Shown one piece after another: positions 27,054 to 30,754 of a stretch of DNA of 36,718 nt (the first letter of the stretch is position 1; every line of letters begins with the position of its first letter). Made by a program: the position numbers and the translations under genes. The notes beneath the pieces were generated by a model, which was not told the DNA's origin, did not search any database, and saw only the letters and a list, made by a program, of their open reading frames with translations. Where the stretch lies: positions 1 to 36,718 of the forward strand of contig JAAYWN010000015.1 in NCBI GenBank assembly GCA_012516665.1. Reading direction: 5' to 3'. This stretch comes from Erysipelotrichaceae bacterium. Lineage in GTDB: Bacteria; Bacillota_I; Bacilli_A; Erysipelotrichales; Erysipelotrichaceae.

Positions 27054-27785
27054 TCACCAGCCGCCATTGTCACCATAGTATTCCTGACGTGAACGGGCAT
27101 CTTCATAAGCCTGATACAGATGATCCAGATCTTCATCGCTGCAGATGAATGCATCGCCCATCAGATCATAATGGCCATCGCGGATCAGAATGCCTGCTTT
27201 ATCAGGACATCCGAAGACTGCTCTGCCTTTTTCTTCAATGGAGCGGATCATACGATGCAGGTGCTTCTCATCTTCTATGTACCCTGTTTCTAAAGAGAAT
27301 CCCTGCAGAATGCCAAGGCCTCTGCCGCTCTCTTGGTTCCATGCATGATCTGAAGCATATTCATCCATCATGATTTTTGAACCAGAGGCATTGCTCATAA
27401 AAATACCAGCATAGTTCCTGAGATCATCCTGTATTTCTTTATCTTCAATGCATTCCATCATATCATCAGGATCATTGCCAATCAGATAGATCAATGAACT
27501 GCTCTGCAGTCTGCTCTGCAGGGCATGGCGATCATCCAGATAGGGATTGAACCATTGGATCTGTTCATCTGTGATCTGATATGCATGAAATGGTCCTGCT
27601 ATCTTCTCATAAGTTCGGCTGCCGCGATGATACTTCTGCGCAAAAGCAGCGCTGTCATCTGCCCAGCCTTCATCCGCAAAAAGAGGCATGATCAAAACAT
27701 GCATATCTGCGGTCAGAATATCATGCAGATATTCATATGCCCACTCTTCATTAAAGTTCGTTCTGTTCAGTATAATATTGATCAT
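27054..27785 (-). CDS. Peptidase-E / class I glutamine-amidotransferase-like protein, nucleophile apparently replaced
   Basis: A 243-residue protein of the S51/class I amidotransferase-like fold. The ATG at 27785 is chosen because AAGGTG lies before it and the longer reading from 28073 would run antisense through the acylphosphatase gene. IYLIGNDPDDMMECI (99-113) matches the family's strand and turn before the nucleophile, and FMSNASGSKIMMDEY (129-143) matches the nucleophile elbow, normally G-x-S-A-G. Aligned that way the nucleophile Ser position holds Ala133, with Ser134 next to it, so the protein may be inactive or use a shifted residue. Function unknown. Confidence 0.7.
   Translation of the reverse strand: MINIILNRTNFNEEWAYEYLHDILTADMHVLIMPLFADEGWADDSAAFAQKYHRGSRTYEKIAGPFHAYQITDEQIQWFNPYLDDRHALQSRLQSSSLIYLIGNDPDDMMECIEDKEIQDDLRNYAGIFMSNASGSKIMMDEYASDHAWNQESGRGLGILQGFSLETGYIEDEKHLHRMIRSIEEKGRAVFGCPDKAGILIRDGHYDLMGDAFICSDEDLDHLYQAYEDARSRQEYYGDNGGW
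27771..27776 (+). promoter_or_regulatory. -10 box for acylphosphatase gene
   Basis: A perfect TATAAT inside the first codons of the divergent gene, 42 bases before the acylphosphatase start; TTCATT stands 18 bases upstream as a weak -35. Confidence 0.45.
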
Positions 27786-27818
27786 ATTCACCTTTTCTAG
27801 AAATGAGGAAACAAAAAA

Positions 27819-28094
27819 ATGAAACGCTATCACGCAATTTTTGACGGCCGTGTCCAGGGCGTCGGCATGCGAGGCTTCTGTATGATGGAAGCACAGTCCC
27901 GCGGTCTGACGGGCTCTGTTAAGAATTTGGAAAACGGCATGGTCGAGATCTATGTTCAGGGAGACGAGGACCTCATTGATGAATTTCTCGGGGCAGTCAA
28001 GCAGGGAAATCGTTTTATCCGTGTCGACGATTATACGATTCAAGAAGTTCCTGTGGTGAGTGGAGAAAAGCATTTCTCCTATGGCTGGGACTGA
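27819..28094 (+). CDS. acyP: Acylphosphatase
   Basis: Small enzyme that hydrolyses acyl phosphates such as acetyl phosphate or carbamoyl phosphate. Its 91 residues match the family's length. The phosphate loop GRVQGVGMRGF at 10-20 contains the catalytic Arg (Arg18), and VKNLENGMVEIYVQG at 34-48 contains the catalytic Asn36. GAGG lies about 10 bases before the ATG. Only 33 bases separate it from the divergent peptidase-E-like gene, and only 3 bases separate its stop from that of the convergent methyltransferase. Confidence 0.96.
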   Translation: MKRYHAIFDGRVQGVGMRGFCMMEAQSRGLTGSVKNLENGMVEIYVQGDEDLIDEFLGAVKQGNRFIRVDDYTIQEVPVVSGEKHFSYGWD

Positions 28095-28849: not shown

Positions 28850-28878
28850 AAAAAAGGCATCCTATCTGAAAGATGCCT
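28850..28878 (-). terminator. Terminator of the HprK/PEPCK-like gene
   Basis: AGGCATC and GATGCCT on the - strand form a 7-bp stem around 10 bases, followed by five or more T residues. Confidence 0.85.
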
Positions 28879-28884
28879 CCAAGC

Positions 28885-30588
28885 TTATTTCTGCTTAACA
28901 AACTCGACCAGTGCTTCAGCCGCTTTTTCAATGCCGTGATCGCCCTTATTCGGCAATCCTAAGCAAGTATATACTTCACCGACCGGGATCTGTTCTTTGA
29001 ACAGTTCATCAAAGAGCTTATCAATCAGCACTTTTGTTTCTTTCTGTCTCTGCATCGGTCCGAATGGATTGGCAAAGAATGTTGTAGACAGGCCTTTCTC
29101 CTGCGTTGTGCCCAAGGCGAACCGCTTGCCCTCAACAAAGACCGGTTCGGCCTCATCACGATTTGTGAACAGATGCATGCCTCTCTTATCCGTATAATTA
29201 TTGGCATAGAGGAAGATATCGATCTTATGATCTTTGGTAATGACCTTATATGGTGCCGCTGGAATAACGACTCTGGCATTTGCTTTTTCTGGATTGAAGA
29301 AGATCGAACGATCCATATCTTTATAAGCAGTTCCTTTATCCAGATCATCCAGACGTACAAAGGCACCGACTTCTGTTCCCTGTGCACGCACTTCGCCATT
29401 TTCATCGATGTGGATCGTGCCCATATCATCAAAGACTGTTTCCTGATGATCAATCATATCTGAAGCCAATGTGCTTAAAGCTTCCAACGTTTCAGACTTT
29501 CCAGCGCCGGAATCGCCCATGAACATCAGCCCCTTCTTAGTGCCATCCTTCAGATAGACATTGACCATGGCCCCGTGGATCGGCAGCCAGCCTCTCTGGA
29601 TCATCACTAAATTATGCAGGGTAAGGATCGATTTCTTCGTATATCCAAAGTAATCGATGGCCGGATCATTAGAATCCTTCAGCAGCCAGATATCATTCTC
29701 GCTGTCATGCCAGAATTCTGTATCGGAACCGCCGTCCGGATTTCCGAACAGCATGATCGCATCTGGTTTTTTTGCAACGGCATCTTTTGCATCAGCCAAT
29801 TCAAATAGATTTGCGGTAGCAGCCGCTGAACCGATGAAGTCCCTATGGAAGTAGCAGTAGATCAATAAAGAGCCGACCTTGGCGGGATAGCATATCCACT
29901 CTTCATCGCCTTTGACAAAGTCAGACATCGGATTATGTTCCGCATCCTTAAAGACATTTGTACGCTTGTTATGCTGCGGGTGCAGGATCAATGGTGTACG
30001 GAGCAGGATCTGATTGATGAAAGGGATCCCTTCCAGCTTTTCATAACCGATGGGCGCTTTCCAATCATAATAGCCCAGCAGCATGCTTGCATTTGTTCCT
30101 GCCTGCAGCTGACGGAATACTTTGTTCTGCGAGCCCTGTACCTTCTGCTCGATCTCACGGTAGAAATCCAGCACCAGCTTATTTTCTTCACTGTCTGCCT
30201 TGATAAAATTCTGCAGCTGGAATCCTTCTTCATTGTGTGTATACAGGACCGAATATCTCTGCAGGGAACGCCAATAGTCATATCCCTTTTCAATGATCAT
30301 CAGCAGTTCATCTGGGATCTTCGTATATGCATCATTGATCTCCTTCGGATCAGATATCAGCAATGTCTTCAGAACGAACTTGATCTCTTTCTTGATCTGC
30401 GTGTTATCTTTGCCATTCTCTGCCAGATAGCTGTACAGATCAAAATGATGAGATTTCAGATTTGCTAAGAAATGATCAAGAAATTCATCAAATACTTCTG
30501 TGGAGACAATTTCATGCTTGCTGGTCAGATATTTCTTCGAATAATTCAGGATTACTGTGTCATCGTGAAAATAATAGGCTTCTTTCAT
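28885..30588 (-). CDS. Large P-loop protein of the HPr kinase / PEP carboxykinase superfamily, function unknown
   Basis: A 567-residue soluble protein. The C-terminal half carries HGAMVNVYLKDG (338-349) and the P-loop GDSGAGKSETLEAL (358-371), which matches the HprK form, followed by an acidic FDDMG (386-390) where HprK and PEPCK have their metal-binding acids. Later, GLSTTFFANPFGPMQ (499-513) resembles the C-terminal substrate loop of ATP-type PEPCK. The first 330 residues, with an alpha-helical start, are not familiar to me. It is neither a normal HprK (about 310 residues) nor a normal PEPCK (lacks GLSGTGKTT). It is a single-gene unit with GGAGGGG 5 bases before the ATG. It may phosphorylate a protein or metabolite; unproven. 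Confidence 0.75.
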   Translation of the reverse strand: MKEAYYFHDDTVILNYSKKYLTSKHEIVSTEVFDEFLDHFLANLKSHHFDLYSYLAENGKDNTQIKKEIKFVLKTLLISDPKEINDAYTKIPDELLMIIEKGYDYWRSLQRYSVLYTHNEEGFQLQNFIKADSEENKLVLDFYREIEQKVQGSQNKVFRQLQAGTNASMLLGYYDWKAPIGYEKLEGIPFINQILLRTPLILHPQHNKRTNVFKDAEHNPMSDFVKGDEEWICYPAKVGSLLIYCYFHRDFIGSAAATANLFELADAKDAVAKKPDAIMLFGNPDGGSDTEFWHDSENDIWLLKDSNDPAIDYFGYTKKSILTLHNLVMIQRGWLPIHGAMVNVYLKDGTKKGLMFMGDSGAGKSETLEALSTLASDMIDHQETVFDDMGTIHIDENGEVRAQGTEVGAFVRLDDLDKGTAYKDMDRSIFFNPEKANARVVIPAAPYKVITKDHKIDIFLYANNYTDKRGMHLFTNRDEAEPVFVEGKRFALGTTQEKGLSTTFFANPFGPMQRQKETKVLIDKLFDELFKEQIPVGEVYTCLGLPNKGDHGIEKAAEALVEFVKQK

Positions 30589-30644: not shown

Positions 30645-30668
30645 CAGAAAAGCGCTTAAAAGCGCTTT
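30645..30668 (-). terminator. Terminator of the RNA-modification operon
   Basis: AAAGCGC and GCGCTTT form a 7-bp stem around 6 bases, then TCTGTATTTT on the - strand. It lies 87 bases after the rlmB-like stop. The 86 bases between hold nothing I recognise. Confidence 0.6.
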
Positions 30669-30754
30669 CAGATGAAATTATTTTCAGTTATCAATGAAAC
30701 ATTCTTACAAAAACGTCTGTTTTCCATAGAATGACACTTGTTTCCAGAATGCGG

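Follow-up and report, generated by a model that had tools for sequence, protein, structure and literature searches.

A gene in the stretch of DNA analyzed here (the window: 36,718 nucleotides, contig JAAYWN010000015.1 of an Erysipelotrichaceae bacterium) likely encodes a phosphoenolpyruvate carboxykinase (PEPCK) that is divergent, forms a class of its own, carries an added N-terminal domain and, judged from its sequence and predicted structure, performs PEPCK chemistry. PEPCK is an enzyme of central metabolism that interconverts oxaloacetate and phosphoenolpyruvate (PEP). The open reading frame (ORF) is located at positions 28885 to 30588 of the minus strand, starts with ATG, and specifies 567 amino acids. 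A first-pass annotation had assigned the protein to the P-loop superfamily that comprises HPr kinase (HprK) and PEPCK, and this placement was right: the protein has the P-loop GDSGAGKSE and weak similarity to the Pfam families PEPCK_ATP and Hpr_kinase_C.

When the ORF was scanned against Pfam and NCBIfam, no model reached its cut-off. PEPCK_ATP (PF01293) matched residues 312 to 394 with an E value of 2e-5 and 23.9 bits against a cut-off of 26.5. DUF4914 (PF16260; residues 318 to 401, E 0.0017) and Hpr_kinase_C (E 0.04) also remained below their curated cut-offs, GTP-PEPCK (PF00821) scored 11.4 bits against 23.8, HprK (TIGR00679) scored 15.9 bits against 240, and the NCBIfam PckA models (TIGR00224) were far below theirs. 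A search of the PDB sequences gave nothing significant, the closest entry being an ATP-PEPCK at E 0.25, and the same search with the family profile gave nothing significant either. With PADLOC and PHROGs, nothing above chance was detected, and our literature search revealed no paper about DUF4914 and none about a new type of PEPCK. Filing the ORF as ATP-PEPCK, GTP-PEPCK or HprK was rejected, since neither the curated scores nor the motifs of any of them are matched. The ORF belongs to an unnamed family, conserved over its full length, that curated families do not cover. A full-length match to a characterized enzyme, which would have contradicted the first reading of the gene, was not found. 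At least one public record already names a family member "phosphoenolpyruvate carboxykinase."

The AlphaFold2 model of the 567-residue protein (59 aligned sequences) had a pLDDT of 90.5 and a pTM of 0.90. Foldseek analysis of the full model against the PDB revealed that the best 50 matches were all PEPCKs (top E 7.7e-16). In line with this, VIA-align superimposed the predicted structure on 2pc9_B with a Z score of 18.8 over 348 residues (rmsd 3.2), and the scores ranged from 16.0 to 18.8 across ATP- and GTP-PEPCKs, the latter at Z of about 16. PEPCKs filled the best 50 VIA-align entries, and HprK was absent from them. A search of viral folds gave only two matches at E <= 0.001, both to proteins of giant viruses labeled PEPCK. 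The alignment starts between residues ~170 and 188 of the ORF and pairs residues ~172 to 567 with ATP-PEPCK residues from ~1 to 16 up to 466, which is also the E. coli PckA residue where the structural match ends. Thus, in the predicted structure, residues ~172 to 567 form a complete two-lobed PEPCK fold, with the N lobe at residues ~172 to 312 (29653 to 30075, minus strand). Since the match begins at residue ~172, only residues 1 to ~165 are unmatched, and the "unfamiliar 330-residue N-terminal half" described earlier resolves into a domain of ~165 residues followed by the PEPCK N lobe.

The N-terminal domain (residues 1 to 165; 30094 to 30588, minus strand) is helical, and no solved structure matched it with confidence. 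Modeled alone with AlphaFold2, it reached a pLDDT of 90.6, and Foldseek returned no match at E <= 0.001. The top 26 VIA entries were almost all globins or phycobiliproteins, with Z scores of only 3.6 to 6.3, which is within the chance range for helical proteins. No His residue is conserved in residues 1 to 174 across 101 homologues, and a heme globin is therefore unlikely. No Pfam family was common to the N-terminal domains of the family members. AHSP, which appeared in a PDB sequence search with this domain at E 0.12 with nothing significant beside it, was judged a chance match and rejected as a relative. The domain is probably a regulatory or oligomerization module; possibly it is a heme-less globin-like sensor, which is no more than a lead. 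The most elaborate proposal, in which a further PEPCK class with undefined phosphate-donor specificity uses such a sensor to gate the oxaloacetate/PEP flux in gut Erysipelotrichaceae and Clostridia and has repeatedly replaced canonical PckA, seems to us improbable.

The catalytic residues of PEPCK can be traced through the ORF, all positions being given on the minus strand. The XKK motif, which is specific to PEPCKs (Table 2 of PMC2684135), reads YFGYTKK at residues 313 to 319 (29632 to 29652), and together with the His that follows it constitutes the strongest PEPCK signature of the protein, shortly before the P-loop (kinase-1a) at residues 358 to 366 (29491 to 29517). Earlier, the P-loop had been compared with that of HprK and a later loop with PEPCK; the former comparison holds, but the main PEPCK signature lies upstream of the P-loop. 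Profile alignment with hhalign matched the family to canonical PckA over residues 312 to 516 (E 2e-7) and, in the P-loop region and DD motif, to the third, lactic type of PEPCK (E 1.4e-9). It placed WLPIHGAM on VLPMHSSA, making H338 (29575 to 29577) the equivalent of the Mn2+ ligand H232 of E. coli, and NARVVIP on NSRVGYP, making R439 (29272 to 29274) the equivalent of R333. The kinase-2 aspartates D387 and D388 (29425 to 29430) were aligned on the lactic-type PEPCK, and GTTQEKG...FANPFGP (residues 493 to 511; 29056 to 29112) matched GTEIGVTEP...FGEPFMP of PckA. In E. coli PckA numbering, the pairs are Y207/Y313, K212-K213/K318-K319, H232/H338, S250/S360, K254/K364, D268-D269/D387-D388 and R333/R439. 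The substrate arginine R65 of E. coli has a candidate equivalent in R209 (29962 to 29964), a residue assigned without alignment. Neither the RX5TR nucleotide motif of ATP-PEPCKs nor the GTP nucleotide motif (both PMC2684135) was found when the ORF was read by eye; the stretch corresponding to RX5TR reads YTCLGLPNKGDHGIEKAAE.

These residues are nearly invariant. Y313, K318/K319, H338, S360/K364, D387/D388, R439 and R209 were all kept in 100 of 101 homologues. Counted singly, R439 was present in every homologue and H338, D387/D388 and R209 in 100 each. All 101 retain G358, D359, G363, K364 and E366, and the other P-loop positions are kept in 99 to 100; the loss of P-loop residues that had been named as a possible refutation was thus not seen, the lysine being present throughout. 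The exception (L043:3614-5260, genome G104) is a degenerate copy in which KK, His, DD, the GTTxExG loop and R209 were all lost together and which, by its sequence, is a natural pseudoenzyme. Since R209 disappeared there with the catalytic set and is kept elsewhere, we infer that it is a good R65 candidate.

The family is widespread. The genome of the window contains a 61% identical paralogue on another contig (C222:4292-5992; L036:4292-5992). Upstream of this paralogue and on the same strand are genes for an M32 carboxypeptidase and for a FAD_binding_2/FMN_bind lipoprotein; the latter resembles a fumarate-reductase-type flavoprotein, and a functional link is only suggestive. In a sample of the order Erysipelotrichales, where the family is common, 110 of 148 genomes and 55 of 67 genera had matches, a few of which were short or canonical PckA itself. 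Full-length conservation in about 55 of 67 genera puts the ORF far beyond chance, and relatives also occur outside the order: 67 of 295 genomes matched in a sample of the phylum (a few of them weakly), and at least 540 relatives were confirmed among GTDB species genomes. The GTDB matches listed include Holdemania, Holdemanella, Faecalicoccus, Allobaculum, Mogibacterium, Peptostreptococcus and Clostridium. In a tree, the proteins of the sister family f2 fall outside a well-supported clade of proteins from f1 (the family of the window), Mogibacterium and Peptostreptococcus. The plasmid search gave one match, on a mobilizable plasmid of Limosilactobacillus fermentum, annotated "phosphoenolpyruvate carboxykinase," and no relative was found on viral contigs. 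The contig of one family member (L128) was assigned in binning to the archaeon Candidatus Methanovirga meridionalis, which may reflect contamination or transfer. In four genomes of one genus (g94; G209, G227, G308 and G372), partial matches lie inside unusually long open frames of 1200 to 5775 amino acids, perhaps sequence running into masked N stretches. A family of ~470 residues adjoins a PyrR-like gene in four genomes (L049:4045-5496, L050:3792-5183, L051:3814-5232 and L054:3711-5144). It is a distant homologue of the window protein (hhalign E 1.5e-34) with a shorter N terminus and decayed P-loops, and the two members scanned had no Pfam or NCBIfam match.

We also analyzed the distribution of the gene relative to canonical pckA. 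In f1 (101 to 105 genomes sampled), 67 genomes had the gene, 16 had canonical PckA, and none had both (chance P 1e-9 to 7e-9, ignoring phylogeny). The same exclusion was observed inside genus g1 (9 of 18 genomes with the gene, 5 with PckA, none with both; P 0.015) and genus g4, and switches occur within both genera. Among named genomes with the gene, 26 of 30 were without canonical ATP-PEPCK; the four with both were M. kristiansenii, C. carboxidivorans, C. hydrogenum and C. tunisiense. In most Erysipelotrichaceae, the gene probably takes the place of canonical pckA. A plain substitution does not describe every case, since the gene usually co-occurs with canonical PckA in f2, is accompanied by ATP-PEPCK in the four named genomes, and co-exists with a lactic-type PEPCK in two others (G189 and G239). 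Across the order sample, GTP-PEPCK was matched in none of the genomes. In family searches of the genome of the window, a draft of ~95% completeness, no canonical PckA, GTP-PEPCK, PEPC or pyruvate carboxylase (PYC_OADA) domain was found, and at this completeness the absences are suggestive. PPDK is present. With PPDK there and neither PEPC nor a pyruvate carboxylase domain found, the family is the only candidate detected in this genome for a direct oxaloacetate/PEP link.

In the proposed mechanism, a two-lobed PEPCK active site would bind Mn2+ through K319, H338 and D388. K364 of the P-loop would hold the nucleotide phosphates, R439 and probably R209 the substrate carboxylates, and Y313 would lie near the CO2 site. 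The reaction that we infer, including activity, direction, metal and nucleotide, would be oxaloacetate + NTP (or another phosphate donor) <-> PEP + NDP + CO2, and it would link the oxaloacetate/aspartate pool to glycolysis.

The same fold could also serve a related reaction, the same decarboxylation and phosphoryl transfer with a different small acid or a different donor such as pyrophosphate. A different acid or donor would account for the co-existence with PckA in some lineages, and the co-occurrence in f2, some Clostridium and Mogibacterium, as well as that with lactic-type PEPCK, is in line with it. So are the missing nucleotide motifs and the HprK-like P-loop, and the near-invariant segment RQLQAGTNA and R144, which lie outside the PEPCK part of the protein, could shape a new pocket. 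However, every alignable catalytic PEPCK residue is kept, the gene and pckA are mutually exclusive in f1, and the other oxaloacetate/PEP enzymes were not found in the genome of the window. On balance, we regard a changed acid or donor as unlikely.

The first-pass annotation had favored a kinase or phosphatase with a new substrate, to which the PEPCK catalytic set, the two predicted lobes and the pckA replacement pattern now give less room. In its specific form, a stand-alone HprK-like protein or serine kinase/phosphorylase whose N-terminal half binds a protein or amino acid substrate, this proposal draws on the resemblance of GDSGAGKSE and the preceding HGAMVNVY to HprK, on the Hpr_kinase_C similarity, and on the match of TIGR00679 to 24 of 59 members of the family. 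It is very improbable, since a true hprK (335 bits) is encoded separately in the genome, as the suggested check for such a gene revealed, and the ORF resembles HprK in the P-loop stretch only: profile comparison aligned only ~17 residues with the HprK of the genome. Furthermore, the ORF does not contain the signature loop (LEIRGIGVI) that follows the P-loop in that protein, which in turn has no counterpart of the KK pair, and the PEPCK fold is matched over both lobes. Finally, the protein could be a relative of PEPCK that serves as a metabolite sensor, either noncatalytic or with a chiefly regulatory role. Degenerate relatives do exist, namely, the pseudoenzyme-like L043 and the ~470-residue family with its decayed P-loops, but since 100 of the 101 family members retain the full catalytic set, we give this reading hardly any weight. 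A divergent PEPCK remains our preferred interpretation.

The gene stands alone, and no neighbor was consistently adjacent to it across lineages; the first-pass description of a stand-alone gene outside the curated families was borne out. That description also gave the gene its own promoter and terminator. A terminator-like hairpin of the intrinsic type does follow the stop codon (28853 to 28880, minus strand), but a scan of the upstream region detected no promoter above threshold. Another hairpin, 5' of the gene (30648 to 30669, minus strand), is possibly the terminator of the upstream methyltransferase gene. It is overlapped by a cre-like sequence, TGAAAGCGCTTTTA (30657 to 30670, minus strand), which matches 10 of 11 fixed positions and is located 82 bases 5' of the ATG; near-copies are equally spaced in close relatives. 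When only genes preceded by 100 or more bases of intergenic DNA were counted and a site had to match 10 or more of the 11 positions, we found cre-like sites 5' of 12 of 67 homologues and of 8 of 337 control genes (P 7e-6, overstated because the homologues are related). According to PMC8637274, transcripts of the S. bovis PEPCK, an enzyme of another type, increase when glucose is low and when ccpA is mutated. As read from these upstream sequences, the PEPCK-like gene is probably under carbon catabolite (CcpA) control. Elsewhere in the window, a 339-residue ORF without a Pfam family (27054 to 28073, minus strand) overlaps an acylphosphatase-like ORF (27819 to 28094, plus strand); the real start codon of the 339-residue ORF probably lies further downstream.

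In metabolic reconstructions of common gut Firmicutes, genomes with this gene alone would be recorded as being without PEPCK or an anaplerotic enzyme. If the protein is a PEPCK, this gap would be filled for most Erysipelotrichaceae and several Clostridium species. Such a PEPCK would also represent another solution to nucleotide binding and another architecture, and the curated families could be extended by means of a defined residue set.

Compared with known systems, the ORF shares with canonical ATP-PEPCK (PckA) the two-lobed fold, the XKK motif, the position of the P-loop, the His, the DD pair, the Arg333 equivalent and the FxxPFxP segment. It differs from PckA in having no full-length sequence match, in its HprK-like P-loop GDSGAGKSE instead of GLSGTGKTT, and in the extra N-terminal domain of ~165 residues. 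The PCKs of S. bovis and L. casei, with the motifs YFGE-LKK, SGSGKST and VLHDD (PMC2684135, Table 2), represent the lactic type, which like the ORF has YFGxxKK, a SGxGKS P-loop, DD, and YANPFRL similar to FANPFGP; RX5TR is missing in both. Three members of this type scored 58 to 77 bits, above the PF01293 cut-off, and no match was made between the N-terminal part of this type and the extra domain of the ORF. Assigning the ORF family to the lactic type was rejected, since its motifs differ (YFGYTKK, SGAGKSE, FDD) and other proteins fit that type (L053 and L170 to L178). These were found in some Erysipelotrichaceae genera (g22 and g25) and in other Bacilli, so that three PEPCK types are patchily distributed in one order. 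DUF4914 covers, with its subthreshold match, the same core region of the ORF. HprK shares the P-loop GxSGxGKSE and a short stretch before it, whereas the ORF has no HPr_kinase_N match and carries the KK pair and both PEPCK lobes.
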